From contig JAFVBE010000035.1 in NCBI GenBank assembly GCA_017480195.1, positions 1 to 64,000 on the forward strand: DNA of 64,000 nucleotides. The letters are read 5' to 3'. The notes below the pieces were generated by a model that was not told where the DNA came from, searched no databases, and saw nothing but the letters and a program-made list of their open reading frames with translations. A program made the translations under genes and the position numbers. Shown here in pieces: positions 24,103-38,740 of this stretch (position 1 is its first letter; each line of letters begins with the position of its first letter). Source of the DNA: Lachnospiraceae bacterium. Lineage in GTDB: Bacteria; Bacillota; Clostridia; Lachnospirales; Lachnospiraceae.

Positions 24103-25119
24103 CTATCTCTGCCATGAATTAGGAATAAATAATTCCTTGGCCTTTCCTACAGCATAATTATCTGTCATACCTGCTATATAATCACATACGACAACTGCTT
24201 TTTCCTCACCGTTTTCTATGTAAGATATATACTCCTCAGGCAGCCTGTCAATATGCTCCATATATTCATTAAAAAGCATCCCTATAAGAGTTTCTGCTTT
24301 AACCTCTTCGCCTTTCGCAATAGGATTAGTATATAAATCCCTGAACATAAAACTTCTTAGTTCCGCAAATGCTTGGCTGTACTCCTCAGGCATGGCTATA
24401 ACTTCCTTATCTATGCTAAATGTAACCGTCGCATGTATCAGATTATTGATTCTGTCTCTGGTTGAATGTCCAAGCATATTTGTACACTCAGCAGGCAGAG
24501 ATTCCTCTGTAAGAAGTCCTGCCCTTATGCCATCATCTATATCATGGTTTACATAAGCTATCTTATCCGAAATCCTGACTATATGTCCCTCCAATGTCGA
24601 AGGGTTGCAGCTTGTCTTGTGATTGACAATTCCATCTCTTACCTCCCAGGTAAGATTAAGTCCCCTGCCGTTCTTCTCTAATCTATCCACCACTCTTAAG
24701 CTTTGCTCATTATGTAGAAAAGGCTTATGAATATAATCCTTAGCATACCTTGTAAGAGCCCTCTCTCCTGCATGTCCAAACGGCGTATGTCCCAAATCAT
24801 GTCCCAAAGCTATTGCCTCGGTCAAATCCTCGTTAAGCCTAAGCGCCCTCGCTATAGTCCTCGCTATCTGAGCAACCTCAAGCGTATGTGTAAGTCTGGT
24901 TCTGTAATGATCATCATCCGGAGCTAAAAAAACCTGCGTCTTATGCTTTAACCTCCTGAATGATTTAGAATGTATAATGCGGTCCCTGTCTCTCTGAAAA
25001 TCAGTTCTTATATCGCATTTTTCTTCACAAATTGCCCTGCCTCTGCTCTCATCAGCAAAAGATGCGCAGTCTCTATATATATCATGCTCTCTTTTCTCGA
25101 ATTCTTCCCTTAAAAGCAT
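24103..25119 (-). CDS. dgt: dGTPase-like HD-domain triphosphohydrolase
   Basis: This protein belongs to the dGTP triphosphohydrolase-like family (dNTP to deoxynucleoside plus triphosphate). The HD metal ligands are visible in TRLTHTLEVAQIAR, LGHDLGHTPFGHAGE and RISDKIAYVNHDIDD. The length with the preferred start is 338 aa, typical of the shorter Firmicute form. The frame opens at 25185, but the ATG at 25119 follows AAAGGG at eight bases and begins MLLREEFEKRE. It is the first gene before dnaG-rpoD, as in many clostridia. Its dNTP specificity is unknown. Confidence 0.9.
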   Translation of the reverse strand: MLLREEFEKREHDIYRDCASFADESRGRAICEEKCDIRTDFQRDRDRIIHSKSFRRLKHKTQVFLAPDDDHYRTRLTHTLEVAQIARTIARALRLNEDLTEAIALGHDLGHTPFGHAGERALTRYAKDYIHKPFLHNEQSLRVVDRLEKNGRGLNLTWEVRDGIVNHKTSCNPSTLEGHIVRISDKIAYVNHDIDDGIRAGLLTEESLPAECTNMLGHSTRDRINNLIHATVTFSIDKEVIAMPEEYSQAFAELRSFMFRDLYTNPIAKGEEVKAETLIGMLFNEYMEHIDRLPEEYISYIENGEEKAVVVCDYIAGMTDNYAVGKAKELFIPNSWQR

Positions 25120-25220
25120 ATTAAGTACCCTTTCAATAATCACATTTCGACAATCATCATTTATATTATTCTTTAAAAAAATCATTTTCCCTTTTTTATT
25201 TTTAATTTTTCATAAAAAAT

Positions 25221-25245
25221 CGGGAAGACATTTTATGTCTTCCCG
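25221..25245 (-). terminator. Rho-independent terminator after yesL copy A
   Basis: Ten-base arms cgggaagaca and tgtcttcccg close a short loop. On the minus strand the hairpin is followed by ATTTTTTA. It lies 12 bp after the yesL stop. Confidence 0.85.
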
Positions 25246-25257
25246 AAATATACTTTT

Positions 25258-26166
25258 TTATTTACTCTTTTTGTTCTTTTTTGAATCCCCGGATTTTTTC
25301 TTGTTATCAGACTTCGATGTCTCCCGCTTATCATCTTCATCAGCTTTCGGTTCTTCCAGTTCTTCAACTTCTTCCGGCACTTCGGCTTCTTCCGACTCTT
25401 CAGCTTCCTCCGACTTCTTTCGAGCCTCTTTAGCCTCCTTGGCAGCCTGCTTCTTAGCCTCTCTGGCTTCCTCCTCAGCTTTTTTCTCGGTATATTCCTC
25501 AAGCTCCTTATTCTTGTTAAATACCTTTCTAACCGTAAATGATGTTCCATAAGCTATAGCTCCGAATATAAACAAAAGCCACATATACCACAGATACAGG
25601 AATAAGGTAGGATAGATTACGCAGAACGCTATAGGCGCAAACCAGGCTATAAATATCTTTATCCAGCTTCCTAAGTATCCTATCGCAAGTATAAAAGAGT
25701 TTTTAAAGGTATTAAACAATGTATTCTCATAACAGGCAATAAGAGGGAATACAAAGGGTACCACAAGGCAGAAGAAAACCACTTCAACTAACAAAACATA
25801 GGTATAAAAGGTTGATATTCCACCCTCAATATTATTAATCATAATGTATTCCGCCAACATAACCGCAAGATATACAAGAATCGCAAGATAAGCCTTTGTA
25901 GCCTGTTTGAAATTTTTCTTGAATTCCGTTATATATCCGGCAAGTACAGTCTCTTCCCTGCCATCCTGAAGTCTTATGCACATGGAATAAAGCGCAGCCA
26001 GCGAAGCACCTATGGTTATAATGGGAAGGCTCGATATGACGAAGCATATATTAAGCGCAAATATATTTCCAAAGCCGTCCATAGCCCTTCTTAAAAAAGG
26101 TCTTGTATCAGCATTCTTATTATCACTTTCAGATATTTTATTATATGAATTATGCCTTTCTGACAT
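25258..26166 (-). CDS. yesL: YesL-family membrane protein, copy A, with long charged tail
   Basis: YesL (DUF624) proteins accompany sugar ABC transporters of the oligosaccharide type. This 302-aa copy has about five hydrophobic segments (FALNICFVISSLPIITIGASL, LAILVYLAVMLAEYIMI, YVLLVEVVFFCLVVPFVF and others) and then a cytosolic tail (about 215-302) made almost wholly of Lys, Glu, Ala and Asp. Copy B (37646-38389) lacks this tail but is otherwise closely similar. The gene follows malG copy A behind a strong hairpin, so it may have separate expression. Its function is unknown. A role in transporter assembly or regulation is only suggested by context. Confidence 0.8.
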   Translation of the reverse strand: MSERHNSYNKISESDNKNADTRPFLRRAMDGFGNIFALNICFVISSLPIITIGASLAALYSMCIRLQDGREETVLAGYITEFKKNFKQATKAYLAILVYLAVMLAEYIMINNIEGGISTFYTYVLLVEVVFFCLVVPFVFPLIACYENTLFNTFKNSFILAIGYLGSWIKIFIAWFAPIAFCVIYPTLFLYLWYMWLLFIFGAIAYGTSFTVRKVFNKNKELEEYTEKKAEEEAREAKKQAAKEAKEARKKSEEAEESEEAEVPEEVEELEEPKADEDDKRETSKSDNKKKSGDSKKNKKSK

Positions 26167-26244
26167 AAATATTCTCCTTAATTAAAAAATATAAAATCCA
26201 CTAAAAATCAGACCATATCAAAATTTCAAATATATCATTTAATT

Positions 26245-26280
26245 AAATAAGGTGTACCATATTATCGGTACACCTTATTT
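26245..26280 (-). terminator. Hairpin between malG copy A and yesL copy A
   Basis: Fourteen-base arms (aaataaggtgtacc and its complement) around an 8-base loop, flanked by A/T-rich runs. Copy B has a near-identical hairpin at 37530-37563, so the feature was duplicated together with the operon. Confidence 0.75.
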
Positions 26281-26303
26281 TAAAATATACATATAATATA
26301 TTA

Positions 26304-27164
26304 TTACTCCTTTACTCCTCCGAGAGCAACACCTGCGATAATGTATTTAGATAAGATAAAGTACATTACTAAAAGAGGTAATACTGTAACGAAGAGTCCA
26401 CAGTAAATCTGACCCCAGTCTCTTTCCTTATCGTTAGCCTTAAGAGCTTCTACATACATAGGCATTGTCATCTTCTGTCTCTCTGTACCAAGGACAAGAG
26501 AAGGAACATAAAGATTGTTCCATGTTGCTACGAAACCGAATATTGCCTGAGTAGCCATAGCCGGCTTAAGCAATGGAAGTACTATTGTATTAAATGTCTT
26601 AAACTCACTTGAACCATCGATTCTGGCAGCTTCTACAATTTCCAATGAAAGACCTGTCTCCATATACTGCTTCATAAAGTAAACAGTAGTAGGTGCAGCC
26701 ATAGCAGGAATTATAAGTGGCCAGTAAGTTCCATAAAGATGAGTTAATCTACAAACCTTAATGAAACCAACGACTGAAACCTGAGTAGGAATCATCATAA
26801 TAGCATAGATGAAGCCCCACATAAAGTCTCTACCCTTAAACTTATAAGCTGTTACTGCGTAAGCAGTAAGTGAACCGAAATAAATCTGAAGTATAGTAGC
26901 AGGTACAGTGATGATAAGCGAATGAAGCATAGCCTGCAATACATTGACACCACTTGTCTTAGCTCCTGCTGCAATAAGGTTCTTAAAGTTAGTTGCAAAC
27001 TGTGAACCCGGCAAAAGCTTAATACCTGTAACAATCTTAGCTGTTGGTAAAGTTGAGTTAATTATCAAAATATAAAATGGTAAAATAGATATTGCACAAA
27101 GTAAAACACAGATTATATATCTTACCAATTTGACTGTTGAATATCCTTTAACTTCCTGATCCAA
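26304..27164 (-). CDS. Sugar ABC transporter permease (MalG/AraQ type), copy A
   Basis: This is the inner-membrane subunit of a carbohydrate ABC importer, 286 aa, with six predicted helices. The EAA loop that contacts the ATPase is EAARIDGSSEFKTFNTIVLPLLKP. The start is TTG eight bases after AGGTG, overlapping the upstream gene end region. It shares roughly 90% of its residues with copy B (36645-37505) by eye. No ATPase gene is in the cluster, so a shared MsmK-like ATPase elsewhere is expected, as is usual for this class. Confidence 0.92.
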   Translation of the reverse strand: MDQEVKGYSTVKLVRYIICVLLCAISILPFYILIINSTLPTAKIVTGIKLLPGSQFATNFKNLIAAGAKTSGVNVLQAMLHSLIITVPATILQIYFGSLTAYAVTAYKFKGRDFMWGFIYAIMMIPTQVSVVGFIKVCRLTHLYGTYWPLIIPAMAAPTTVYFMKQYMETGLSLEIVEAARIDGSSEFKTFNTIVLPLLKPAMATQAIFGFVATWNNLYVPSLVLGTERQKMTMPMYVEALKANDKERDWGQIYCGLFVTVLPLLVMYFILSKYIIAGVALGGVKE

Positions 27165-27174
27165 TCTCTTTCAC

Positions 27175-28116
27175 CTACCTTCCATCATTAGTCTTATCCT
27201 GAGTAAGCTTGTAGAATATCAAGCTTATTATCATAGTTACAACGAAAAGAACTATCGAATAAGAAGCGGCACGACCTAAGTTCTGAGCAGGACTTACAGC
27301 AGTATAATTCTTGATAAGCATCATAACAGTAGTTGTGGAATTAACCGCCTGACCATTAAACAGAACGACAGGACCACCATCATTAAACAATGCAGGTATA
27401 TCGTACATCTGTAAACCACCGATAGCGGATGTTACAAGTGTGTACTGTAAGATAGGCTTAAGCAATGGAAGTGTAATCTGGAAGAACTGCTGTCTGCTGC
27501 TCGCTCCATCAACCATAGCTGCCTCGTAAAGTGAAGGATTAATACCCATGATACCGGCACAAAGGACAATCATAGTATTACCATACCACATCCAGAACTG
27601 GATAAATGCGATAATTATGAGTGATGCCCAACCGGTCTTAAGGAAGCCGTCCTTACCAACCCAGCCCCATTTTCGAACAAGACTTGTGATTGGTCCGTTT
27701 GTCTCAAACATACTGTAGAACAATACAGCGATTGTTGCTGCAGTTATAATATTTGGCATATACATTATAACCTTGTATATACCGTTACCCTTTAATTTAT
27801 ACTTTATGTCAGTAAACCATGCTGCAAGTAAAAGTGAAAGTAATATCTGAGGGATAAAGTTCAATATCCATAATACAACAGTTACTCCGAGAGCCTTCCA
27901 AATCTCTCCACCACCAAGGTCACCAAATACATAGTTCTTGAAGTTACCAAAGCCGAAAGACTCCGTTATATTTCTACCATTCTTAGCAGAATATATGAGA
28001 GAATTATAAAAAGTATATATCAGCGGATATAACTGAAATACTAAAAATACTACGAAGAAAGGAACCGCAAATAAGACACCATATTTACCATGTTCCACTG
28101 ATTTTTTCTTTTTCAA
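27175..28116 (-). CDS. Sugar ABC transporter permease (MalF/UgpA type), copy A
   Basis: This partner permease of the importer has 313 aa and six helices. The EAA loop is EAAMVDGASSRQQFFQITLPLLKP. The open frame begins with an ATG at 28134, but that ATG is part of the GGGAGGAGG ribosome site. The TTG at 28116 gives MKKKKSVEHGKYGV, matching copy B, which starts GTG at the equivalent place. It is close to copy B along its length. A hairpin lies between it and the upstream binding-protein gene. Confidence 0.92.
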   Translation of the reverse strand: MKKKKSVEHGKYGVLFAVPFFVVFLVFQLYPLIYTFYNSLIYSAKNGRNITESFGFGNFKNYVFGDLGGGEIWKALGVTVVLWILNFIPQILLSLLLAAWFTDIKYKLKGNGIYKVIMYMPNIITAATIAVLFYSMFETNGPITSLVRKWGWVGKDGFLKTGWASLIIIAFIQFWMWYGNTMIVLCAGIMGINPSLYEAAMVDGASSRQQFFQITLPLLKPILQYTLVTSAIGGLQMYDIPALFNDGGPVVLFNGQAVNSTTTVMMLIKNYTAVSPAQNLGRAASYSIVLFVVTMIISLIFYKLTQDKTNDGR

Positions 28117-28153
28117 AGCGTAACCTCCTCCCATGAATGATTTTTTTTACAAT

Positions 28154-28187
28154 ACACGCACCGGCAAAATTACTACCGATGCGTGCA
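28154..28187 (-). other. Intercistronic hairpin between SBP-A and malF-A
   Basis: Arms near 28154-28163 and 28176-28187 (cacgcaccgg against ccgatgcgtg with one mismatch). No U-run follows on the minus strand, so this looks more like an RNA-stabilising or attenuating hairpin than a full terminator. This would leave more binding protein than permease. Confidence 0.5.
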
Positions 28188-28217
28188 TAATTATCGTTAT
28201 AAAATAACTTCTAACAA

Positions 28218-29657
28218 TTACTCTGCTGCTGGGATACCAAGCTCAGTATTTGACTTGTCATATACATAAGCGATAGCATCATCTACAGAAGAATATGTTC
28301 CATTGTTATAACCATTCATAGCATCTTTGATGTATGACTCGTAGTTCTTATCAGCATAAGTTGAAGCTGACTGATCGATTCCCTCTGCTGCAGCAGCCCA
28401 AGTTGCATATGGGTTCTGTCCGCCAAGGAACTTAAGACCGTTGTTATCATCTGAAAGCTCACCATTTGCAAGCTTATCATTTGCAGTCTTATTAACAACA
28501 GCATCACCAGTTACATTAGTGATATCTACACCGATTGCTGGATCGAATGCAAGCTCATAAGCGATAAATGCTGCAAGCTCTGGGTTAGGAGTATCCTTAC
28601 CGATACATACATAAGTACCGCCCCAGTAGTATGACTGAGGACCTACAACAGCACCCCAATCGCCATCTACAGCACCGTTACCCTGGAATACACCAATCAT
28701 CCAAGGACATGCGAAGTAGCAGAATACATTACCATCTGGTCCCATGTTAGCAGCCCAATCGCCGTCCCACATAGTACCGTTGTTAGTGTAATCACCATCG
28801 TAAAGCTTCTTAGCAGTCTCAAGGAACTTGTTTACAGAGTCATCAAGCTTAACTGTCTCTGAACCGTCATCTGCAACATTTACCCACTGATTAGTATGTG
28901 CATTGATAATTGCATAGTAAACTTCATCAGGACCATTTACAATCTTGTAACCTGCTTCCTTAAGAGTGTCAGCAGCCTCGAAGAATGAATCCCAATCTCC
29001 GATAAGTGCCTGAATCTCGTCTGGATCGTCAGTACCAAATACTTCCTTAGCAATGTTTCTGTTATAGAATACAGAACCTGCTGTTGACTGCCATGTTACA
29101 GCCTTGAGCTCTCCATTGTATGAAGCATACTCCTTAGCGTAATCATAGTTATCAGCCCACATATCCTCAGTGAAACCAAGATCTAAGAGGTTAGCAGTCT
29201 TGCTGTCATCCTCTGTCCAATACTTAGCTGATCCAACATCACCAGGGATGAGTGAAGGATACTTGTCTGAGTCAAATGCAAGGTCAATCTGCTCAAGTGA
29301 CTCCTCTGATGCAATACCAAGGTTGATGTACTCTACATAATCCTTGTACTCTGGATAAGCATCAAGTACAACATTAAGCTTCTTCTGGAAGTCATCATCC
29401 CATGAATAAGCATAAATCTTGTTTGAATCATCCCATCCGTCAGTACTTGGAGCTGCGATACCGCCTGTTGCTACATCACTGCCACCATCCTCAGGTGCCT
29501 CAGTAGTCTCTTCACCACCGTCATTTGATGCCTCAGTTGTAGTCTCAGCTGCAGTAGTAGTCTCATCACCATCGTTGTTATCATCGCCACAAGCTGCAAG
29601 AGAAAGTCCCATAGCAAGTGCTAATGATAATGCCATTGCTTTTTTGAATTTTTTCAC
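28218..29657 (-). CDS. Sugar-binding lipoprotein of ABC importer, copy A
   Basis: This is an extracellular solute-binding protein (family 1, MalE-like) of 479 aa. The signal peptide with lipobox LAAC places the acylated Cys near residue 22, followed by an Asp/Thr/Glu-rich linker. The folded domain starts about residue 70 (GGIAAPSTDGWDDSNKIYAY) and is Trp/Tyr-rich (DWGAVVGPQSYYWGGTYV), consistent with carbohydrate stacking. The start is GTG with GGAGGG seven bases upstream and a consensus promoter at 29885-29913. Its first 92 coding bases are identical to copy B, yet the mature proteins are only about 60% identical by eye. The sugar is unknown. Confidence 0.93.
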   Translation of the reverse strand: MKKFKKAMALSLALAMGLSLAACGDDNNDGDETTTAAETTTEASNDGGEETTEAPEDGGSDVATGGIAAPSTDGWDDSNKIYAYSWDDDFQKKLNVVLDAYPEYKDYVEYINLGIASEESLEQIDLAFDSDKYPSLIPGDVGSAKYWTEDDSKTANLLDLGFTEDMWADNYDYAKEYASYNGELKAVTWQSTAGSVFYNRNIAKEVFGTDDPDEIQALIGDWDSFFEAADTLKEAGYKIVNGPDEVYYAIINAHTNQWVNVADDGSETVKLDDSVNKFLETAKKLYDGDYTNNGTMWDGDWAANMGPDGNVFCYFACPWMIGVFQGNGAVDGDWGAVVGPQSYYWGGTYVCIGKDTPNPELAAFIAYELAFDPAIGVDITNVTGDAVVNKTANDKLANGELSDDNNGLKFLGGQNPYATWAAAAEGIDQSASTYADKNYESYIKDAMNGYNNGTYSSVDDAIAYVYDKSNTELGIPAAE

Positions 29658-29664
29658 AAAAAAA
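29566..29664. repeat. 99-bp perfect inverted repeat, left copy
   Basis: The reverse complement of 29566-29664 equals 34127-34225 base for base (checked by reading both). It covers seven T residues, the GTG start and the signal-peptide codons of the binding protein. Outside the repeat, similarity falls to about 70% on the coding side and to nothing on the promoter side, where the left copy continues directly into GGAGGG. Confidence 0.95.
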
Positions 29665-30090
29665 CCCTCCTTTTTATAATGTGTGTTTTGTCCTTACACA
29701 TCTGTCACATATTTCATTCTCAAACATCAATCTCTGAGCAAGCCCGTCAAAATCAATCTGAAATCTCCATACACGACATCCGTGCTTGAACTGCTCTTTT
29801 TTGAACCTATGTAAACAGTAAAACTGTTGGTTCCTTACATAAAAATAGTCGTAATGGACTGGCATATCCATCAAAACTATGGTTATTATAGGACATTTTA
29901 AACAATTTTGCAAGTGTTTTTTTTAATTTTCTTTGTGCAATTATACTTTTTGACCCGATTTATGTGCACTTCTTTTATATATTATCTTATGATATTATAG
30001 TCCAAAGCAGACAAAAATTCACTCTTTTTTCATATTTTTCTTTAAATATATTTTATGTATGATAAAATATTTTATTATATGGAGGAAGCT
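29658..30090. other. Divergent intergenic region upstream of SBP copy A
   Basis: This 430-bp region holds the SBP-A promoter (29885-29913) and a leader of about 215 bases. The leader includes a hairpin at 29808-29841 (tatgtaa/ttacata outer arms, aacagt/actgtt inner arms) and a 65-codon minus-strand frame (29871-29674) that starts about seven bases after the expected transcription start and ends just before GGAGGG. I cannot tell whether that frame is real. To the right are A/T-rich sequences with a possible plus-strand -35 (TTGACC, near 29950) for the next gene. Confidence 0.6.
29885..29913 (-). promoter_or_regulatory. SigA-type promoter of SBP copy A operon
   Basis: On the minus strand: TTGCAA (29908-29913), a 17-bp spacer, TATAAT (29885-29890). 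This near-consensus promoter lies inside the candidate invertible segment and points outward through the left repeat. Confidence 0.8.
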
Positions 30091-30975
30091 ATGAAAAAAA
30101 ATCATTTTAAGCCTGATGAAGATATAAATGCCGAAAATCCCATAAAGCTAAAGCCTGATGCAGATATCGCCGATAAGACCGAGAGTTTAAAAGAAGGTAA
30201 GACAGAAAAGATTAAACATATGACATTTGAAAATAACCTCGAGATGTCAGAATTAAGTTTCAGAGAGCGCCATGAAGCCAGAAAAGCTCAGAGAAAAGCC
30301 ATTATTAAGGATATGAGTTCTAAGGAAAAAATAAGCTATTTCTTCTATTATAATAAGTGGAAGATAATTTTTTCGTTAATTGTCATAATTTATGCGTCTG
30401 CTGCAATCGCTACTATAATAAGAAACACACGGCCTTATGCCTTGTCATACGCAATTGTAAATCACAATTTCTCTGAGGTTTTAAGCGATGAACCGATACG
30501 GGATTATCTAAAATATTATAATATGGATAAGGGCTATCAGGTTAATTCAAGCACGAATATTCACCTTAACCTTAAGGAATACCTTAATGGCAACGCTGCC
30601 GAAAATGATTCTACATCATATGATAGCTTCCCTCTGCTATGCTCCGAGAATTATTACGATATAATAATATCGGATAAAAATGGCATTGATTTTTGTGTTG
30701 AATCTTATATTGCTCAGCCTGTCGAGGATGTTTTATCATCAGATATAATAGAGGAGATTACTATGAAATATCCTGACATTATTCACAGTGTCAAAGAAGA
30801 AAACGGCGAATCAACAAATATCTATATAGATATAAGCGATACAGATTTTGCAAAAAATCTAAACCTTTCCTATAATAAGGTATATATCTGTTTTCCGGGT
30901 AAATCATCACAGAATGTTAAAAATGCCGAAAAGGCTATGAAATTCATATTAAGCTTAGATTACAACATTAATTAA
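30091..30975 (+). CDS. Single-pass membrane protein of unknown function
   Basis: This 294-aa protein has a charged cytosolic N-terminus (about 1-90), one membrane helix (KIIFSLIVIIYASAAIATII, about 100-120) and an extracytoplasmic domain of about 170 residues without a recognised motif. The open frame starts at 30055, but the ATG at 30091 follows GGAGG by five bases. It is transcribed divergently from the copy A operon and ends at a bidirectional terminator shared with the ABC-F gene. It lies inside the candidate invertible segment. No function can be assigned. Confidence 0.65.
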   Translation: MKKNHFKPDEDINAENPIKLKPDADIADKTESLKEGKTEKIKHMTFENNLEMSELSFRERHEARKAQRKAIIKDMSSKEKISYFFYYNKWKIIFSLIVIIYASAAIATIIRNTRPYALSYAIVNHNFSEVLSDEPIRDYLKYYNMDKGYQVNSSTNIHLNLKEYLNGNAAENDSTSYDSFPLLCSENYYDIIISDKNGIDFCVESYIAQPVEDVLSSDIIEEITMKYPDIIHSVKEENGESTNIYIDISDTDFAKNLNLSYNKVYICFPGKSSQNVKNAEKAMKFILSLDYNIN

Positions 30976-30988
30976 AGCACCCAAAGAA

Positions 30989-31022
30989 ATAAGCTGATTG
31001 AGCACACGCTCAATCAGCTTAT
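30989..31022. terminator. Bidirectional terminator
   Basis: Perfect 15-base arms (ataagctgattgagc and complement) around an acac loop, with ATTTTTA on the plus side and A-rich sequence before it. It serves the converging membrane-protein and ABC-F genes. Confidence 0.85.
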
Positions 31023-31055
31023 TTTTACTTCACATTATATTCACTTTAATTATTT

Positions 31056-32684
31056 TTAATTGTCATCTGTCGGCATATTCATAACTTGACGCTTTCTTGC
31101 AAGTTCATCATTAGCAAGGTATTCGTCATATGTGGTCTGCTTGTCGATAAGACCTGTATTCGTAAGCTCCATAATACGATTGGCAGTCGTCTGCACGAAC
31201 TGGTGATCCTGGCAGGCAAAAAGCACAACTCCCGGGAACTTTATCAGACCATTGTTTAATGCTGTTATCGACTCCATATCAAGATGATTGGTAGGCTCAT
31301 CTAATATAAGAACATTCGAGCCCATAATCATAAGCTTGGACAGAAGGCATCTTACCTTCTCTCCTCCCGATAATACCTTGACCTTCTTGACACCGTCTTC
31401 GCCTGCGAAGAGCATTCTTCCGAGGAATCCTCTTACATAGGTTGCATCCTTATCATCGGAATACTGTGCAAGCCAGTCTGCTATAACAAGGTCATTGTCG
31501 AATTCCTTCGTATTGTCCTTAGGGAAATACCCCTGAGATGTGGTAACTCCCCATTTATATGACCCCTCGTCCGGTTCTTCCTCGCCTGCAAGTATCTTGA
31601 ATAATGTAGTCGTAGCTATGGTATTCGGTCCTACGAAGGCAATCTTGTCATCATGTCCTACCGTGAAGGATATATTATCAAGCACTTTTACACCGTCTAC
31701 GGTCTTGGAAATATTCTCCACCATAAGCACTTCATTACCGATTTCTCTCTTCGGTCGGAAATCTATATAAGGATATTTTCTGCTTGAAGGCTTAATCTCA
31801 TCAAGCTCAATCTTCTCCAATGCACGCTTTCTCGAGGTCGCCTGCTTGGACTTGGAAGCATTCGCCGAGAATCTCTGAATGAATTCCTGTAACTCCTTAA
31901 TCTTCTCTTCCTTCTTCTTATTAGCTTCCTTCATCTGCTTAATCATAAGCTGGCTTGACTCATACCAGAAGTCATAGTTACCTGCATAAAGCTGAATCTT
32001 AGCATAATCTATATCAGCGATATGTGTACATACTTTATTAAGGAAGTATCTGTCATGGGACACGACGATTACCGTATTATTAAAGTCAATCAAAAATTCC
32101 TCAAGCCATGCGATAGCATCAAGGTCCAGGTGGTTGGTCGGCTCGTCAAGCAGAAGTACATCCGGATTGCCGAAAAGCGCCTGAGCCAAAAGCACCTTAA
32201 CCTTAAGGTTGCCGTCAAGCTCGCTCATCTGCTTATAGTGTATATCCGTATCAACACCCAGTCCATTAAGTAGTGTGGCTGCGTCCGACTCAGCATTCCA
32301 GCCGTCCATCTCTGCGAACTCCGCCTCAAGCTCAGAGGCTCTTACGCCATCCTCATCTGAGAAGTCTTCCTTTGCATAGATTGCATCCTTTTCCTTCATT
32401 ATCTCATACAGTCTCTTATTACCCATAATGACTGTATCCATTACATTATATTCATCATACTTATAGTGATCCTGCTGGAGCACGGAAAGTCTCTCGCCCG
32501 CATTCATTATAACCTCACCATTGGTTGGCTCAAGCTCTCCTGAAAGTATCTTTAAAAATGTAGACTTACCCGCACCGTTAGCGCCTATAAGTCCGTAACA
32601 GTTACCTTCCGTAAATTTAATATTAACATCCTCGAACAAGGCTTTTTTACCAAGTCTTAAAGTAACATTGTTTGCACTAATCAT
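31056..32684 (-). CDS. ABC-F family ATPase (YbiT/YkpA type)
   Basis: ABC-F proteins bind ribosomes and modulate translation, and they lack membrane domains. This 542-aa protein has two nucleotide-binding domains joined by a charged helical linker (KQMKEANKKKEEKIKELQEF). Domain 1 has Walker A GANGAGKST and DEPTNHLDLDAI. Domain 2 has the signature LSGGEKVRCL and DEPTNHLDMESI. Its Walker A is replaced by GPNTIATTT, which I recall as normal for this YkpA-like branch. I see no specific sign of an antibiotic-resistance subtype. It has its own promoter at 32731-32759. Confidence 0.92.
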   Translation of the reverse strand: MISANNVTLRLGKKALFEDVNIKFTEGNCYGLIGANGAGKSTFLKILSGELEPTNGEVIMNAGERLSVLQQDHYKYDEYNVMDTVIMGNKRLYEIMKEKDAIYAKEDFSDEDGVRASELEAEFAEMDGWNAESDAATLLNGLGVDTDIHYKQMSELDGNLKVKVLLAQALFGNPDVLLLDEPTNHLDLDAIAWLEEFLIDFNNTVIVVSHDRYFLNKVCTHIADIDYAKIQLYAGNYDFWYESSQLMIKQMKEANKKKEEKIKELQEFIQRFSANASKSKQATSRKRALEKIELDEIKPSSRKYPYIDFRPKREIGNEVLMVENISKTVDGVKVLDNISFTVGHDDKIAFVGPNTIATTTLFKILAGEEEPDEGSYKWGVTTSQGYFPKDNTKEFDNDLVIADWLAQYSDDKDATYVRGFLGRMLFAGEDGVKKVKVLSGGEKVRCLLSKLMIMGSNVLILDEPTNHLDMESITALNNGLIKFPGVVLFACQDHQFVQTTANRIMELTNTGLIDKQTTYDEYLANDELARKRQVMNMPTDDN

Positions 32685-32730
32685 AATATAAAATTCCTTC
32701 CTAAATCACTTAAAAACTGCAACAAAATTG

Positions 32731-32759
32731 AGTATAACAAGTGCCTGTTTTTATGTCAA
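32731..32759 (-). promoter_or_regulatory. SigA-type promoter of the ABC-F gene
   Basis: On the minus strand: consensus TTGACA (32754-32759), a 17-bp spacer and TATACT (32731-32736). It is about 47 bp upstream of the ATG. Confidence 0.8.
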
Positions 32760-32783
32760 GGGTTTAAAATAAAATGAAATAGT

Positions 32784-33902
32784 TTAATCAATACTGCCAA
32801 GCTTATTAATCTCACTCTTCTTAATATCCTCAGTAATATGAACATAAATATTCATAGTGGTACTGATATCGGAATGTCCCATAACAGACTGTAAAACCTT
32901 TGGAGATACACCTGCTGTCACACATTTCGAGGCGAAAGTATGTCTTAATGAATGTATTGAAAATACATCAATACCGGCTTTCCTGCATATTGTTGCAATT
33001 CCTGTATCGTACGAATTATTCCTTATGGGAAGCCCCCGAGAGCTTAAGAAAACCAAATTTTCAAAGTCAGAGTTTACAGCCGACGGGCGTAAAGCGCATA
33101 TTCTTTTTGCCTCCTCTAAGATCTCCCTACATTTAACAGTCATATAAATATCTCTTATTCCCTGCTTTGATTTTGGTGATATAAAGTACCATCCCTTGGT
33201 TTTATCGTACTGCATGGTATGTCTTATATGTATGCAATCGTTCTCAAAATCCACCTCGTCCCAGGTAAGTCCTATAAGCTCGCCTGCCCGAAGTCCTGTC
33301 TCAAGAACCAGACGGCAGGGAAGATAATATGCGGTTCCCTTTGCATATTCAAAAAATGTTTTTATTTCATCCGGTGATATAAGCAAATGCCTCTCGTGAT
33401 TTTCATCCTCAGTCGCATCACTCGGCACAATCACTGATTTGCCTACCGGATTTTTTATAATTATATCATTGTAAACAGCATACTGGAACATACAGCTCAT
33501 AGCAACTCTTGTCTGCTTTATCGAAGAGCTCCTATAAGACCTGCTCATATTTTGCAGCACAGCCGTACAATGCATGGGCTTTACATCTGTAATCTGCATA
33601 CTTCCGATTATGGATTTGATATTATTGTTGTAATAATTCGTATAGTTAAACACCGTCTTAGGCTTAAGCGTATCGTCCAATATAGCTATCCATTGCTTGA
33701 ACCAGCAGTCTACCGTCATACTTTTCTGCGTCACTATACTCCCATGCCTGTCCTGATATCTGCTCTCCTCGAGCCATAGCTTAGCCTCTGAAAGTTCATC
33801 AAAACGCCTTCCAATTCTTTTACCATTCTGTCTTGAAGTAAATCGGGCATAATACCGCCCGTCTTTTGTCTTTGTTATTCCTTTTACATTAACCTTACTC
33901 AT
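32784..33902 (-). CDS. Tyrosine recombinase / phage-type integrase
   Basis: This 372-aa site-specific recombinase has an N-terminal arm-binding AP2-like domain (about 5-50: TKDGRYYARFTSRQNGKRIGRRF), a SAM-like core-binding domain (about 60-150) and a C-terminal catalytic domain. The catalytic set is complete: Arg in GLRAGELIGLTW, Lys in SPKSKQGIRD, HxxR in HSLRHTF, His in MGHSD and the nucleophile Tyr in NIYVH. The open frame extends to 33995, but the ATG at 33902 follows GGAGG by seven bases. No other phage or ICE gene is nearby. It lies at the right end of the segment bounded by the 99-bp inverted repeats. Confidence 0.93.
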   Translation of the reverse strand: MSKVNVKGITKTKDGRYYARFTSRQNGKRIGRRFDELSEAKLWLEESRYQDRHGSIVTQKSMTVDCWFKQWIAILDDTLKPKTVFNYTNYYNNNIKSIIGSMQITDVKPMHCTAVLQNMSRSYRSSSIKQTRVAMSCMFQYAVYNDIIIKNPVGKSVIVPSDATEDENHERHLLISPDEIKTFFEYAKGTAYYLPCRLVLETGLRAGELIGLTWDEVDFENDCIHIRHTMQYDKTKGWYFISPKSKQGIRDIYMTVKCREILEEAKRICALRPSAVNSDFENLVFLSSRGLPIRNNSYDTGIATICRKAGIDVFSIHSLRHTFASKCVTAGVSPKVLQSVMGHSDISTTMNIYVHITEDIKKSEINKLGSID

Positions 33903-33920
33903 ATAAATTCCTCCGATTTT

Positions 33921-33948
33921 ATCATAAAATGGTGCAAAATTGGTGCAA
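33921..33948 (-). promoter_or_regulatory. Candidate promoter of the recombinase gene
   Basis: On the minus strand: TTGCAC (33943-33948), a 16-bp spacer and TATGAT (33921-33926), just before the ribosome site. The -35 and spacer coincide with a TGGTGC repeat pair, so recombinase binding could repress its own gene. Confidence 0.4.
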
Positions 33949-34066
33949 AAAAATAATAGTAAAATCAATTTACTAAAATTGCACTTAATATACACATAAA
34001 CTCTTATTCGGACAGTAATATATTTTTCATTAATCTATAAATCTAAATTGGTGCGGAATATGGTGC
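33930..34066. repeat. Paired TGGTGC direct repeats (possible recombinase arm sites)
   Basis: Four direct copies lie in two pairs: 33930-33935 with 33941-33946 (11-bp period) and 34049-34054 with 34061-34066 (12-bp period). An inverted, weaker copy (attgcac) lies near 33978-33984. Pairs one helical turn apart next to an integrase gene are typical of arm-type binding sites. Binding is inferred. Confidence 0.5.
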
Positions 34067-34126
34067 TTTATTTTCAAATCCCTACAAGCAAAACAGTTAT
34101 ATTTAACGCATTCTTAAAAAATTATT

Positions 34127-34225
34127 TTTTTTTGTGAAAAAATTCAAAAAAGCAATGGCATTATCATTAGCACTTGCTATGGGACTTTCTCTTGCAGCTT
34201 GTGGCGATGATAACAACGATGGTGA
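34127..34225. repeat. 99-bp perfect inverted repeat, right copy
   Basis: This is the exact inverse of 29566-29664. It starts within a run of nine T residues before the GTG of SBP copy B and ends 92 bases into the gene. In the next 46 bases the two genes differ at about 13 positions. Confidence 0.95.
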
Positions 34226-35588
34226 CGAGACCACTACCGCATCAGAGACTACTACTGAGGCGGCAGTCGATGGCGGTGATGAGGATACTGAAGCTCCGGC
34301 AGTAGAGGATGGAGACACTGCTAAGGCAGGCGGAATCGAAGCACCAAGCACTGACGGATGGGACGATTCAAAGAAGATTTACGCTTATACATGGGATGAG
34401 AATTTCCAGAAGACAGTTGAGCTTCTTCTTCAGAAGTATCCGGAGTATGTAGATTATGTTGAGTTCGTGAACTTAGGTGTTGGCGGACAGTCAGACGAGT
34501 GGATTCAGGGTGTTGATACTGCACTTGAGAATGGTGACAAGTATCCATCACTTATCCCTGCTGATATAGGTGTTGCTAAGTACTGGTCAGAGGACGACAG
34601 CAAGACTGCTAACCTCTATGACTTAGGCTTCACAGATGATATGTTCGCAGATAACTATGACTTCGTACTTGATTTCGGTTCATACAATGGTGAGCTTAAG
34701 TGTGTAACTTATCAGTCAAACCCTGGTTCAGTATTTTATCGTAGAGACATTGCTAATGATGTATTCGGAACTGATGATCCGGATGAGATTCAGGCAAAGC
34801 TTGCTGATTGGGATACAGTTCTTGAGACTGCTCAGGAGCTTAAGGATGCCGGATATTATCTTACATCAGGACCTGCTGATGTTAAATATCCTATCTGGGA
34901 GACTAAGTCAAATCCTTGGGTAACTATCGCAAGTGACGGTTCTGAGACTCTTTCACTTGACAGCTCAGTTACAACTTATTTTGAGACTGCCAAGACACTT
35001 AATGACGAAGGCTATACTAACGGTGTAGCAGGTATGTGGAACTCTGACTGGTATGCAGATATGACTGATGAGAGCAAGGTATTCTGCTTCTTTGGATGTC
35101 CTTGGTTCGTAGGCACTATGCAGGGTAACGGTGCTGTAGATGGTAACTGGGGTGCTGTTGTAGGTCCTCAGGCATATCATTGGGGTGGTACTTATGTATC
35201 AATCGGTAAGGATACTCCTAATCCGGAGCTTGCAGCATTTATCGCTTATGAGCTTTGCTGTGATACTGATTTCGCTGTAGACCTTGTTAATTCAGACTGT
35301 GATACAAACTGCTCAGCAAATAAGGCTGCTAATGCAAGACTTGCAGCAGGCGAGCTTTCAGCTGACTTCAACGCTACTAAGTTCTTAGGCGGACAGAACC
35401 CATTTGAGGTTTGGTCAGCAGCATCAGAGGGTATCAACCTTGCAAACGAGACTTATGCAGATGGTACTCTTCAGAACTTCATGGATGATGCTTCAACAGG
35501 TTACAACGCAGGAACATATTCAAGTGTTGATGAGGCACTTCAGTATGTAAAGGATCAGGCTTCTTCAGTGCTCGGTCTTTCAGAGTAA
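34134..35588 (+). CDS. Sugar-binding lipoprotein of ABC importer, copy B
   Basis: This family 1 solute-binding lipoprotein has 484 aa, with signal peptide, lipobox LAAC and acidic linker as in copy A. The mature domain is Trp/Tyr-rich (WDENFQKT, GNWGAVVGPQAYHWGGTYV) and about 60% identical to copy A by eye, so it may bind a related but different sugar. It has the same GTG start as copy A, but the 20 bases before it are A/T only and contain no ribosome site, and no convincing promoter is seen. In the present DNA orientation it is probably poorly expressed. The gene itself is intact. A strong terminator-like hairpin separates it from its permease genes. Confidence 0.9.
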   Translation: MKKFKKAMALSLALAMGLSLAACGDDNNDGDETTTASETTTEAAVDGGDEDTEAPAVEDGDTAKAGGIEAPSTDGWDDSKKIYAYTWDENFQKTVELLLQKYPEYVDYVEFVNLGVGGQSDEWIQGVDTALENGDKYPSLIPADIGVAKYWSEDDSKTANLYDLGFTDDMFADNYDFVLDFGSYNGELKCVTYQSNPGSVFYRRDIANDVFGTDDPDEIQAKLADWDTVLETAQELKDAGYYLTSGPADVKYPIWETKSNPWVTIASDGSETLSLDSSVTTYFETAKTLNDEGYTNGVAGMWNSDWYADMTDESKVFCFFGCPWFVGTMQGNGAVDGNWGAVVGPQAYHWGGTYVSIGKDTPNPELAAFIAYELCCDTDFAVDLVNSDCDTNCSANKAANARLAAGELSADFNATKFLGGQNPFEVWSAASEGINLANETYADGTLQNFMDDASTGYNAGTYSSVDEALQYVKDQASSVLGLSE

Positions 35589-35621
35589 TCTAAAGTATAG
35601 ACTTATATAGGATTTTTATGC

Positions 35622-35666
35622 GGGCTGCTGCTTTAACGAAAAACAAGTGAAGCAGCAGCCCTTTTT
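35622..35666 (+). terminator. Terminator/attenuator between SBP-B and malF-B
   Basis: Arms gggctgctgcttt and aagcagcagccc (35622-35661) are followed by TTTTT. It probably lets only some transcripts continue into the permease genes. Copy A has a different, weaker hairpin at this place. Confidence 0.8.
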
Positions 35667-35692
35667 AAAAATTACTTATCGGAGGTGAAAGT

Positions 35693-36634
35693 GTGAATAA
35701 AAAGAAATCGGTTGAACACGGCAAATATGGTGTAATGTTCTCCATACCATTCTTTGTTGTGTTTTTAATCTTCCAATTATATCCGCTCATACTGACATTC
35801 TACAATTCGCTGATTTATTCCAATAAACAGGGTAGAAATACTACAGATGTATTCGGGTTGGGTAACTTTACACACTATATATTCGGACATGATGCCGGCG
35901 GCGAAGTATGGCATGCGCTTGGTGTAACTGCGGTTATGTGGATACTTAACTTCATACCTCAGATACTTCTCTCACTGCTTCTTGCCGCATGGTTTACGGA
36001 TATTAAATACAAATTAAAAGGAAATGGTATATACAAGGTTATTATGTATATGCCAAATATCATAACTGCTGCAACAATCGCAGTTTTATTCTACAGCTTA
36101 TTCTCTAACAACGGACCTATGACAAAGCTTTTTCAGAACTTAGGCTGGGTAGGAAGTAACGGATTCCTAAGCAAGGGTTGGGCATCTCTTATAATCATTG
36201 CATTTATCCAATTTTGGATGTGGTATGGCAATACCATGATAGTCCTTTGTGCAGGTATATTAGGTATCAATCCATCACTCTACGAAGCAGCTATGGTGGA
36301 TGGCGCTACTAGCAGACAGCAGTTCTTCCAGATTACACTTCCTCTGCTTAAACCTATCTTACAGTACACACTTGTAACATCCGCTATCGGTGGTTTACAG
36401 ATGTACGATATACCACAGCTTTTCAACGAAGGCGGTCCTATCGTCAAGGTAGGAGATGCATCAGTTAATTCAACTACTACAGTTATGATGCTTATCAAGA
36501 ATTATGCAAGTCCGGGCGCAAGGACAGATATGGGACGTGCAGCAGCATATTCCGTACTCTTATTTGTAGCAACATTAATTGTAAGCTTATTCTTCTATAA
36601 GCTTACTCAGGATAAGTCTAATGACGGAAGGTAG
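35693..36634 (+). CDS. Sugar ABC transporter permease (MalF/UgpA type), copy B
   Basis: A 313-aa permease paralogous to 27175-28116, with six helices and EAA loop EAAMVDGATSRQQFFQITLPLLKP. The start is GTG five bases after GGAGGTG. Differences from copy A cluster in the periplasmic loop regions (for example GHDAGGEVWHALG, and the segment before NSTTTVMML), which is where the binding protein docks. It overlaps malG-B closely (10-bp gap). Confidence 0.92.
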   Translation: MNKKKSVEHGKYGVMFSIPFFVVFLIFQLYPLILTFYNSLIYSNKQGRNTTDVFGLGNFTHYIFGHDAGGEVWHALGVTAVMWILNFIPQILLSLLLAAWFTDIKYKLKGNGIYKVIMYMPNIITAATIAVLFYSLFSNNGPMTKLFQNLGWVGSNGFLSKGWASLIIIAFIQFWMWYGNTMIVLCAGILGINPSLYEAAMVDGATSRQQFFQITLPLLKPILQYTLVTSAIGGLQMYDIPQLFNEGGPIVKVGDASVNSTTTVMMLIKNYASPGARTDMGRAAAYSVLLFVATLIVSLFFYKLTQDKSNDGR

Positions 36635-36644
36635 GTGAAGATAA

Positions 36645-37505
36645 TTGGATCAGGAAGTTAAAGGATATTCAACGGTGAAATTGATAAGATATATAATATG
36701 TATATTACTTTGTTTCTTATCTATCTTCCCGTTTTATATATTGATAATAAACTCAACACTGCCGTCATATAAGATTGTTACAGGCATCAAGCTTCTGCCG
36801 GGTTCACAATTTGCAACTAACTTTAAGAATCTTATAGATGCAGGTGCTAAAACAAGCGGTGTCAATGTATTACAGGCTATGCTTCATTCACTTATCATCA
36901 CTGTGCCTGCTACAATTCTTCAGATATATTTTGGTTCTCTTACGGCTTATGCGGTAACAGCTTATAAGTTCAAGGGAAGAAATCTTATGTGGGGATTTAT
37001 ATATGCGATAATGATGATACCTACTCAGGTATCTATAGTAGGTTTTATAAAGCTCTGTAACCTTACACATCTTTACGGAACTTATTGGCCGCTTATCATC
37101 CCTGCTATGGCAGCTCCAACTACCGTTTACTTTATGAAACAGTATATGGAGACAGGTCTTTCACTTGAAATCGTGGAAGCCGCTAGAATAGATGGTTCAA
37201 GTGAGTTTAAAACATTTAATACGATAGTACTTCCATTGCTCAAGCCGGCTATGGCAACTCAGGCAATATTTGCTTTCGTTGCTTCATGGAACAATCTCTA
37301 TACGCCATCTCTTATATTGGCAACAGAGAGAGAAAAGATGACAATGCCTATGTATGTATCTGCTCTTAAAGCAGATGATAAGAATCAGGATTGGGGACAG
37401 ATTTACTGTGGTCTTCTTGTAACTGTTCTTCCAATTATAGTAATGTATTTCATTTTATCTAAATACATTATCGCAGGTGTCGCTTTAGGCGGAGTAAAGG
37501 AGTAA
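36645..37505 (+). CDS. Sugar ABC transporter permease (MalG/AraQ type), copy B
   Basis: A 286-aa permease paralogous to 26304-27164, with EAA loop EAARIDGSSEFKTFNTIVLPLLKP identical to copy A. The start is TTG after AGGTG. It ends before a hairpin (37530-37563) that matches the one after copy A. The ATPase subunit is missing from this cluster too. Confidence 0.92.
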   Translation: MDQEVKGYSTVKLIRYIICILLCFLSIFPFYILIINSTLPSYKIVTGIKLLPGSQFATNFKNLIDAGAKTSGVNVLQAMLHSLIITVPATILQIYFGSLTAYAVTAYKFKGRNLMWGFIYAIMMIPTQVSIVGFIKLCNLTHLYGTYWPLIIPAMAAPTTVYFMKQYMETGLSLEIVEAARIDGSSEFKTFNTIVLPLLKPAMATQAIFAFVASWNNLYTPSLILATEREKMTMPMYVSALKADDKNQDWGQIYCGLLVTVLPIIVMYFILSKYIIAGVALGGVKE

Positions 37506-37529
37506 TCATATATTACTATGTATATTTTA

Positions 37530-37563
37530 AAATAAGGTGTGCCATGATTGGTGCACCTTATTT
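37530..37563 (+). terminator. Hairpin between malG-B and yesL-B
   Basis: Fourteen-base arms (aaataaggtgtgcc and near-complement ggtgcaccttattt) with a 6-base loop, followed by A/T-rich sequence. It is the homologue of 26245-26280, with compensatory-type changes in the stem. Confidence 0.75.
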
Positions 37564-37645
37564 ATATAATGAGGATATCATCTAACCTTCGTTATATAAA
37601 TAAGGTGTATCAAATATACTGAAAATATTTATAAGGAGTTTATAA

Positions 37646-38389
37646 ATGTCAAATAGTAAAAAAACAAACAATACAAGCATAGGTAAAGAAAGCAAAAATC
37701 CAAATAATCAGATATCAAATTACAGAATGTCAGAAAACGATAACAAAAACGCAGACACCAGACCTATCTTACGAAGGGCAATGGATGCCTTCGGCAATAT
37801 ATTCGGTCTTAATGTATGCTTCGTCATATCCTGTCTGCCTGTGATAACCATAGGCGCGTCTCTTGCCGCACTTTATTCTATGTGTATAAGACTTCAGGAC
37901 GGCAGGGAGGAGACGGTGCTTGCAGGATATATAACGGAATTCAAGAAGAACTTTAAGCAGGCTACACAGGCATTTCTTGTAATACTTGTATATCTGGTAG
38001 TCATGCTTGGCGAGTATATTATGATTAACAATGTTGACGGAGGTATCTCAACCTTCTATACCTATATACTTATCGTCGAGGCGGTATTATTCTGCCTTGT
38101 TGTGCCTTTTGTGTTTCCGCTTATAGCCTGCTATGAAAATACATTAATAAATACCTTTAAGAACGCTTTTCTTCTCTCCATAGGCTACTTAGGAAGCTGG
38201 ATAAAGATATTTATAGCATGGTTCGCACCGACAGCCTTCTGTATCATATATCCTATGTTATTTATCTATATATGGTATCTGTGGCTTCTGCTTATCTTCG
38301 GTGCTATAGCCTACGGAACATCATTTACAGTAAGGAAGGTGTTCAACAGGAATAAGGAGTTGGAGGAGAACACCGAGAAAGACAGCTAA
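37646..38389 (+). CDS. yesL: YesL-family membrane protein, copy B
   Basis: This 247-aa copy closely resembles copy A in its membrane core (CFVISCLPVITIGASLAALYSMCIRLQDGREETVLAGYITEF region), with about five hydrophobic segments. It ends shortly after the last helix (NRNKELEENTEKDS), lacking the roughly 85-residue Lys/Glu tail of copy A. It has a longer Asn/Ser/Lys-rich N-terminus. The ATG follows AAGGAG. Its function is unknown, tied by context to the adjacent sugar importer. Confidence 0.8.
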   Translation: MSNSKKTNNTSIGKESKNPNNQISNYRMSENDNKNADTRPILRRAMDAFGNIFGLNVCFVISCLPVITIGASLAALYSMCIRLQDGREETVLAGYITEFKKNFKQATQAFLVILVYLVVMLGEYIMINNVDGGISTFYTYILIVEAVLFCLVVPFVFPLIACYENTLINTFKNAFLLSIGYLGSWIKIFIAWFAPTAFCIIYPMLFIYIWYLWLLLIFGAIAYGTSFTVRKVFNRNKELEENTEKDS

Positions 38390-38395
38390 TAATAA

Positions 38396-38430
38396 TACAC
38401 CCTACAGGTTTTTATACCTTATAGGGTGTA
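38396..38430 (+). terminator. Terminator after yesL copy B
   Basis: Arms tacaccctacaggt and atagggtgta, followed by ATTTTGTTT. A second small hairpin (ataccc/gggtat, 38455-38470) follows and may serve the converging small gene. Confidence 0.8.
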
Positions 38431-38481
38431 ATTTTGTTTGTGTAAATCATTTTTATACCCTATCGGGTATTTTATGTTAAT

Positions 38482-38667
38482 TTACAAATTTCTTACTATC
38501 GGGTCATATAAATCAAGTCTGCAATGCTCGTCATCTGCGAAATGTGTGCAGGTAAGGCAGCTAACTGAATCTCCTGCAAGGTCTGTAAATCTGTCACGAC
38601 AATGCTTGCAGTCATACTCGCTGCATCTTTGGGCTACCTCATGGTAGGTCTCCTGTGAACTACGCAT
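38482..38667 (-). CDS. Small Cys-rich, probably zinc-binding protein
   Basis: This 61-aa protein has seven cysteines arranged CSEYDCKHC, CLTCTHFADDEHC and related spacing, suggesting a small zinc-ribbon-like fold. The open frame starts at 38727, but the ATG at 38667 follows GGAGG at nine bases and begins MRSSQETYHEVAQRC. It lies between terminators and the ABC exporter genes. I do not recognise a named family. Confidence 0.65.
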   Translation of the reverse strand: MRSSQETYHEVAQRCSEYDCKHCRDRFTDLAGDSVSCLTCTHFADDEHCRLDLYDPIVRNL

Positions 38668-38740
38668 ATTCTCGTTCCTCCTTATATACGATAATTTAAT
38701 TATCTTTATATAAGGAAAGTATGCCACTAAATGCGATTAA

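Follow-up and report, generated by a model that had tools for sequence, protein, structure and literature searches.

A candidate inversion switch between two sugar ABC transporter operons at their shared gene starts in a Lachnospiraceae bacterium

Anatomy of the locus

We analysed the first 64,000 nucleotides (hereafter the window) of contig JAFVBE010000035.1 from the Lachnospiraceae bacterium assembly GCA_017480195.1, in which two paralogous sugar ABC transporter operons face opposite ways on either side of a segment that carries a tyrosine recombinase gene. Each operon encodes a binding protein, two permeases and a DUF624 protein. Operon A (25258..29657, minus strand; the proposed ON position), delineated from the open reading frame (ORF) list and family searches, comprises the sugar-binding lipoprotein gene SBP_A, which has a GTG start (28218-29657), two permeases matching Pfam BPD_transp_1 (27175-28134 and 26304-27164) and a protein matching Pfam DUF624 (25258-26166), all on the minus strand. 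Operon B (34134..38389, plus strand; the proposed OFF position) comprises SBP_B (34134-35588, 484 amino acids (aa)), two permeases (35693-36634 and 36645-37505) and DUF624 (37646-38389), all of them open and on the plus strand. Family searches covered the permeases and the DUF624 protein of operon A, and the operon B members were assigned as their paralogues. The operon A permeases resemble UgpE, UgpA, MalG and MalF, with all scores under the curated cut-offs. No Pfam family was found for the binding proteins, and a profile of 20 of them matches 8bfy, which binds cellobiose (1e-21), and 5ixp, a solute-binding protein of family 1 (2e-16). Between A and B, identity is 63% for the binding proteins, as against 80 and 91% for the two permeases, a pattern compatible with similar channels that serve different ligands; this lower likeness of the binding proteins, together with substituted conserved residues, leads us to infer that the two transporters may differ in sugar specificity.

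The starts of both operons lie within a perfect inverted repeat of 99 nt. Its left arm (29566..29664) covers the first SBP_A codons, which encode the signal peptide, together with a run of T, and its right arm (34127..34225) covers the first codons of SBP_B. The arms bound a segment of 4462 nt (29665..34126) that we propose to be invertible, with the proposed recombination site of the left arm at the start codon and just within the SBP_A gene. Excluding the first 110 alignment columns, the two operons are 75.5% identical; the longest perfect run between them is the 99-nt repeat (0.755^99 ~ 9e-13) and the second longest is 62 nt. In the bacterium's own genome, a draft of 63 contigs that is 84.7% complete, the 99-nt repeat has only these two copies, and a 25-nt start motif is confined to the two arms even when 2 mismatches are allowed. 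With two start copies only in this draft genome, the locus does not hold a larger family of interchangeable genes.

The two starts differ in what precedes them. SBP_A is preceded by a ribosome-binding site (RBS; AGGAGGG) and by a leader of more than 200 nt (29665..29960, minus strand) that holds, 228 nt away from the GTG, a promoter-like TTGCAA-17-TATAAT (29913-29885, minus strand); all of these lie within the segment. SBP_B has no RBS, and the promoter scan returned no promoter-like site directed at it. The generic scan found 5 sites, not clearly more than in shuffled sequences (mean 2.8, standard deviation 1.7), and the TTGCAA/TATAAT stretch is among the portions of the leader that are conserved across genus loci. 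As far as sequence can tell, then, the segment carries a promoter and RBS that serve one flank in each orientation, and the shared site lies at the 5' ends of two lipoprotein genes (lipobox read as LSLAAC) that have a single promoter between them. In silico, inverting 29665-34126 joins leader, RBS and GTG in frame to the intact 484-aa SBP_B and deprives operon A of its RBS. The recombinase gene (32784..33902, minus strand; 372 aa, ATG start with RBS, Pfam match), which encodes the proposed invertase, adjoins the right arm, and between the two lies a direct repeat, TGGTGCAAAATTGGTGCAAAA (33930..33950, plus strand), a proposed arm-type site; an equally long repeat arose in 2 of 300 shuffles.

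A preliminary description of this DNA had pointed to the perfect repeat, to the outward-facing and otherwise diverged binding-protein genes, to an RBS and promoter at the left gene alone, to a catalytically complete recombinase beside the right repeat, and to an inversion that would disconnect A and join B in frame, and all of these points are borne out here, the last of them in silico.

As to the leader itself, stretches of its more than 200 nt (29665-29960) are conserved across genus loci. An Rfam search of 25000-40000 in the window gave 4 weak matches (E up to 1), all below gathering scores and all to eukaryotic or snoRNA families, which we do not regard as credible.

Recurrence in four genomes and origin of the second operon

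Relatives of the recombinase were sought in one genome per species, the own genome excluded. Among the best 80 of 388 confirmed stretches, identities of at least 60% were found only in RGIG3763 (G009; 87%), RGIG4472 (G012; 68%) and C6A11 (G037; 60%). A search of the genus gave 45% identity for the best recombinase after those of G009 and G012, and the C6A11 recombinase as query matches 11 of 397 family genomes at 1e-70, only the own genome exceeding 45%. Searches of phage and plasmid records matched 2361 and 621 of them, respectively, none at 60% identity or above. The genome scan is blind to relatives of 41-45% identity that other searches found, and more members of the recombinase clade, with changed patterns, may thus exist.

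In all four genomes (the window, G009, G012 and C6A11), the recombinase adjoins a binding-protein start that has no RBS in the preceding 20 nt, and a second start, equipped with leader and RBS, exists in every one of them. A related start is present in 31 of 37 genus genomes, own included, 28 of which lack the recombinase clade. An RBS precedes each of the 29 other genus starts examined (those of the 28 recombinase-less genomes and the ON copy of G012), as well as window A. The ON and OFF copies part abruptly at the boundary between T-run and GTG in 4/4 genomes, and on the gene side they are identical over 92 nt in the window, at least 112 nt in G009 (where the contig ends), 30 nt in G012 and 259 nt in C6A11. 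The arms of the window and of G009 differ at 3 of their first 86 nt, each pair being perfect within its own genome. The two G012 starts share 35 nt in one run, which is short for homologous recombination. In three of the four genomes, the binding-protein gene that lacks an RBS is open. In G012 the whole RBS-less operon is intact, with a rough dN/dS of 0.04-0.11 against window A (dS 1.1-1.7), as if it were expressed at times; part of this divergence may predate its silence and stem from an expressed state.

Among the side observations on these relatives, the two binding-protein genes of C6A11 (L214:12477-13940 and L064:10960-12431) alternate between stretches that are identical and stretches that have diverged, and the copy beside the recombinase is frameshifted. 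A gene on contig C88, considered as a candidate for the missing ON gene of G009, was rejected on account of its own RBS and start.

Besides the recombinase, the segment contains a membrane-protein gene of no known family (30055..30975, plus strand; no Pfam or NCBIfam match) and an ABC-F ATPase gene (31056..32684, minus strand). Of the 28 genus genomes with the start but no recombinase of this clade, 25 have the membrane gene beside the operon and 20 the ABC-F gene, counts that cover the fetched stretches, several of the non-matching ones stopping at a contig edge. Both genes thus adjoin the operon in most recombinase-less genomes and represent ancestral neighbours, not cargo, so that the preliminary description's emphasis on them as an unusual feature riding inside the segment was misplaced. 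A dgt gene is present past the operon in 15 genus genomes. G009 has an extra gene between membrane gene and leader (L062:9132-10175), without counterpart in the window, whose product reads as alpha/beta-hydrolase-like.

The flanking genes also bear on how the second operon arrived. In G029 and G001, the ABC-F gene directly adjoins FtsX, an empty site (in the other genus loci examined, FtsX falls outside the fetched stretch). In G012, about 5.4 kb, consisting of the recombinase and an operon, lie between ABC-F and FtsX, and the same pair stands there in the window. On this gene order, the recombinase and the spare operon have been inserted between ABC-F and FtsX. The silent operon of G009, the nearest relative of the window on the ABC-F tree, likewise adjoins FtsX but differs in type (35-37% binding-protein identity). 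In C6A11, the recombinase and silent gene adjoin dgt instead; the two C6A11 contigs run into the same sequence once past the binding-protein gene and stop there, so that their arrangement is a presumed one.

Across species of the genus, the same locus (L142-L172; 25258-30054 in the window) carries three dissimilar operon types that share a conserved leader, RBS and signal peptide. Specifically, 34 binding proteins sort into three types that share one leader and start; members of different types have 37% aa identity in the body of the protein and 82% nt identity over their first 75 nt. When the types are mapped on an ABC-F tree of 23 rows, in which G009 and G012 were labelled by their silent operons, they change 6 times (minimum 2), and 20 of 200 label shuffles gave a count as low; with expressed-side labels and G009 omitted (22 rows), the count is 4, as low in 14 of 200 shuffles. 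This scatter of operon types over the tree is suggestive, not proof. A speculative and rather doubtful extension would see the leader and signal-peptide start as a docking site for exchangeable operons, at which a domesticated gene-start integrase captures spares and flips expression in a manner loosely resembling an integron, the units being entire sugar-uptake operons that are joined at the start codon.

Kinship with ychF-associated integrases

The recombinase aligns to solved Int proteins across the segments bearing R, K, HxxR, H and Y, which we take to be the catalytic motif of tyrosine recombinases, and its catalytic residues, as read in the alignment, appear complete. The Int structure matches include 6emy chains and relatives (E 5e-30), presumably Tn1549 Int, placing the protein among Tn916/Tn1549-like integrases. 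The four recombinases form one clade (support 100/99) inside a group of 20 rows (96/96) that also holds 16 integrases; the grouping of these 16 is not firm (86/91), and the recombinase clade may therefore lie beside or among them. Thirteen of the 16 integrases end right before the start of ychF, which was not seen for L041, L206 and L211. Over its N-terminal 60 aa, the window recombinase is similar to the ychF-associated integrases, and the relatives in G012 and C6A11 lack this region. A direct repeat with a period of 11-12 bp lies between integrase and target in all 12 ychF loci tested, as it does in the window. The recombinase gene points at the silent start in G012 and C6A11, as in the ychF loci, and away from it in the window and G009.

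In one ychF genome, G268, a 50-bp repeat covering -33 to +17 of ychF recurs 9.3 kb off with 96% identity, and we read it as a putative att site. At four further ychF loci (L224-L227), no second att copy was found within about 1.5 to 15 kb upstream (one in five found overall). The ychF elements resemble the locus in several ways: they harbour the nearest recombinase relatives seen, the one in G268 has an att-like repeat across a gene start, and direct repeats lie between integrase and target. They differ in their direct-repeat att and in the Xis-like ORF of several loci, and they presumably integrate and excise rather than invert. No excisionase candidate was found near the window recombinase (no ORF of at least 30 aa in 32600-34140 beyond those overlapping the recombinase, ABC-F and SBP_B), nor was a direct-repeat att found at the element ends, the repeats of the window and G009 being inverted. 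A published account places a satellite prophage of Streptococcus pneumoniae upstream of ychF (PMC10383233).

The 13 ychF loci, all from this family of bacteria, are L035, L036, L037, L038, L039, L040, L203, L204, L205, L208, L209, L212 and L213, several with a Xis-like ORF in front. L207, outside the tree, ends before only the first six codons of ychF and is hence not counted as a ychF start; it lies about 11 kb from L213 on one contig (G137:C6), as if the two integrases belonged to two elements in tandem. Integration targeted at tRNA genes was discarded as a candidate for these relatives, since 17 loci, searched together with as much as 1.5 kb of flanking sequence at either end, contain no tRNA.

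A proposed switch, its alternatives and its counterparts

We consider it probable that the locus is a site-specific inversion switch choosing between the two sugar ABC transporter operons. The tyrosine recombinase would act on two identical sites at the start and first codons of the opposed sugar-binding-lipoprotein genes, with a core predicted to include TTTTTGTGAAAAAATTCAAAAAAGC. Inversion of the 4.46-kb segment would detach the sole promoter, leader and RBS from operon A, join them in frame to operon B, and leave operon A preceded by the RBS-less sequence of the recombinase side. Each cell would accordingly produce one of two related transporters and keep the other silent yet intact. Such a switch would have originated when a recombinase and spare operon inserted, oppositely facing, beside a resident operon that shares the spare one's start sequence. 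We infer that this recombinase catalyses the inversion and that the inversion is reversible. The switch had been proposed in the preliminary description, and it stands as the best explanation of the four-genome layout, the RBS pattern and the kinship with gene-start integrases, tempered by the single orientation found.

Several observations weigh against this reading. The recombinase and silent operon lie on the FtsX side in the window, G009 and G012, an agreement of 3/3 (chance 0.25 at 50:50), and the opposite orientation, which the preliminary description suggested looking for in related genomes, was found in none of these three orientable genomes. A short core site does not account for arms as long as these, from 99 to over 200 nt, and the two starts of G012 are not homogenised. 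The signal peptide that holds the arm is conserved genus-wide (82-85% mean identity over the first 75 nt), which explains part of the likeness between the starts. The silent SBP of C6A11 is frameshifted, and the ON gene of G009 is truncated by the contig end. The copies in G012 and C6A11 sit on separate contigs, so that their inverted arrangement is presumed; these two genomes also lack the direct repeat and have shorter recombinases without the N-terminal region, and the G009 repeat has a mismatch and failed the repeat test.

Homologous recombination alone, with RecA-dependent gene conversion keeping the repeats identical, inversion rare and incidental, and the recombinase a bystander, would accommodate arms longer than a recombinase core, the patchwork of identical and diverged stretches in the C6A11 copies and the other identical runs between A and B, of up to 62 nt. 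It would leave unexplained why a recombinase of one clade adjoins the RBS-less start in all four genomes found, why the boundary is sharp at the start codon in each, why G012 shares just 35 nt and why the RBS-less binding-protein gene is open in three of the four, and we regard it as unlikely. Gene conversion, which the preliminary description had offered as a sufficient cause of the identity, is disfavoured in that role by the recurrence of the recombinase and the 35 nt of G012, but it probably helps to make the identical arms as long as they are, and their length implies some gene conversion besides site-specific exchange.

The site-specific switch must also be set against an integration relic, in which the integrase delivered a spare operon that is now a silent reservoir and the recombinase is inactive here. 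The insertion of the module between ABC-F and FtsX, with empty sites in G029 and G001, the common orientation in 3/3 genomes and the frameshifted silent copy of C6A11 would all fit such a relic. The open recombinase and silent operons, the low dN/dS of the G012 operon and the identity of the arms within the window and within G009 speak against it, making it quite improbable. A draft misjoin at the junction is very improbable: 99 nt is a usual assembler k-mer, the genome is in 63 contigs, the G009 contig stops inside the arm and the C6A11 contigs stop just past the binding-protein genes, but separate assemblies repeat the layout of recombinase and RBS-less start with other arm lengths, and operon B adjoins FtsX like the silent operons of G012 and G009.

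Closest in logic to the proposed switch are the mycoplasma lipoprotein switches and the Lactobacillus acidophilus slp inversion. The inversion between slpA and slpB was reportedly described by Boot in 1996, and in the sap system of Campylobacter fetus, expressed and silent copies are exchanged by inversion in a RecA-dependent manner. SusC/SusD shufflons of Bacteroides, reportedly described by Nakayama-Imaohji in 2009, use invertases to select nutrient-uptake surface proteins in gut bacteria, as is proposed here; they differ in that they belong to the outer membrane, employ other invertases and have shorter repeats.

Like the proposed switch, the slp (PMC7858073) and sap systems swap expressed and silent copies by inverting a chromosomal segment, but their cargo is an S-layer protein, whereas that of the window consists of sugar ABC transporter operons. 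The mycoplasma systems, vpma with Xer1 in M. agalactiae, vsp in M. bovis and vsa with HvsR in M. pulmonis, combine a linked tyrosine recombinase, one promoter, surface lipoproteins, recombination at the 5' end and promoterless silent genes, the putative vpma recombination sites lying at -1 to -72 (PMC2268961). There, single antigens are swapped among several genes. Here, a Lachnospiraceae bacterium would exchange two whole sugar-transporter operons, the proposed site covers start codon and signal peptide, and the enzyme is akin to ychF-associated integrases. The cwpV switch of C. difficile, a 195-bp element inverted by RecV (PMC2784873), shares an XerC/D-type tyrosine recombinase, inverted repeats and a host among the Clostridia, and acts on a single gene; in contrast to the window, its promoter lies outside the element, one gene is turned ON or OFF and the recombinase is unlinked. 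Gut invertons (PMC11892184), Ureaplasma UU172 (PMC3047005) and Vpma in infection (PMC5634654) are further relatives.

Our literature searches, which covered open-access papers, gave no account of whole sugar-transporter operons being selected through inversion at their start codon, nor of any such operon switch in Lachnospiraceae. If the proposed switch operates, isogenic Lachnospiraceae cells would bet-hedge on carbohydrate uptake by inverting the control of whole ABC transporter operons at a recombination site placed on the start codon, and the locus would illustrate how an integrase acting beside a gene start can be domesticated into a switch.

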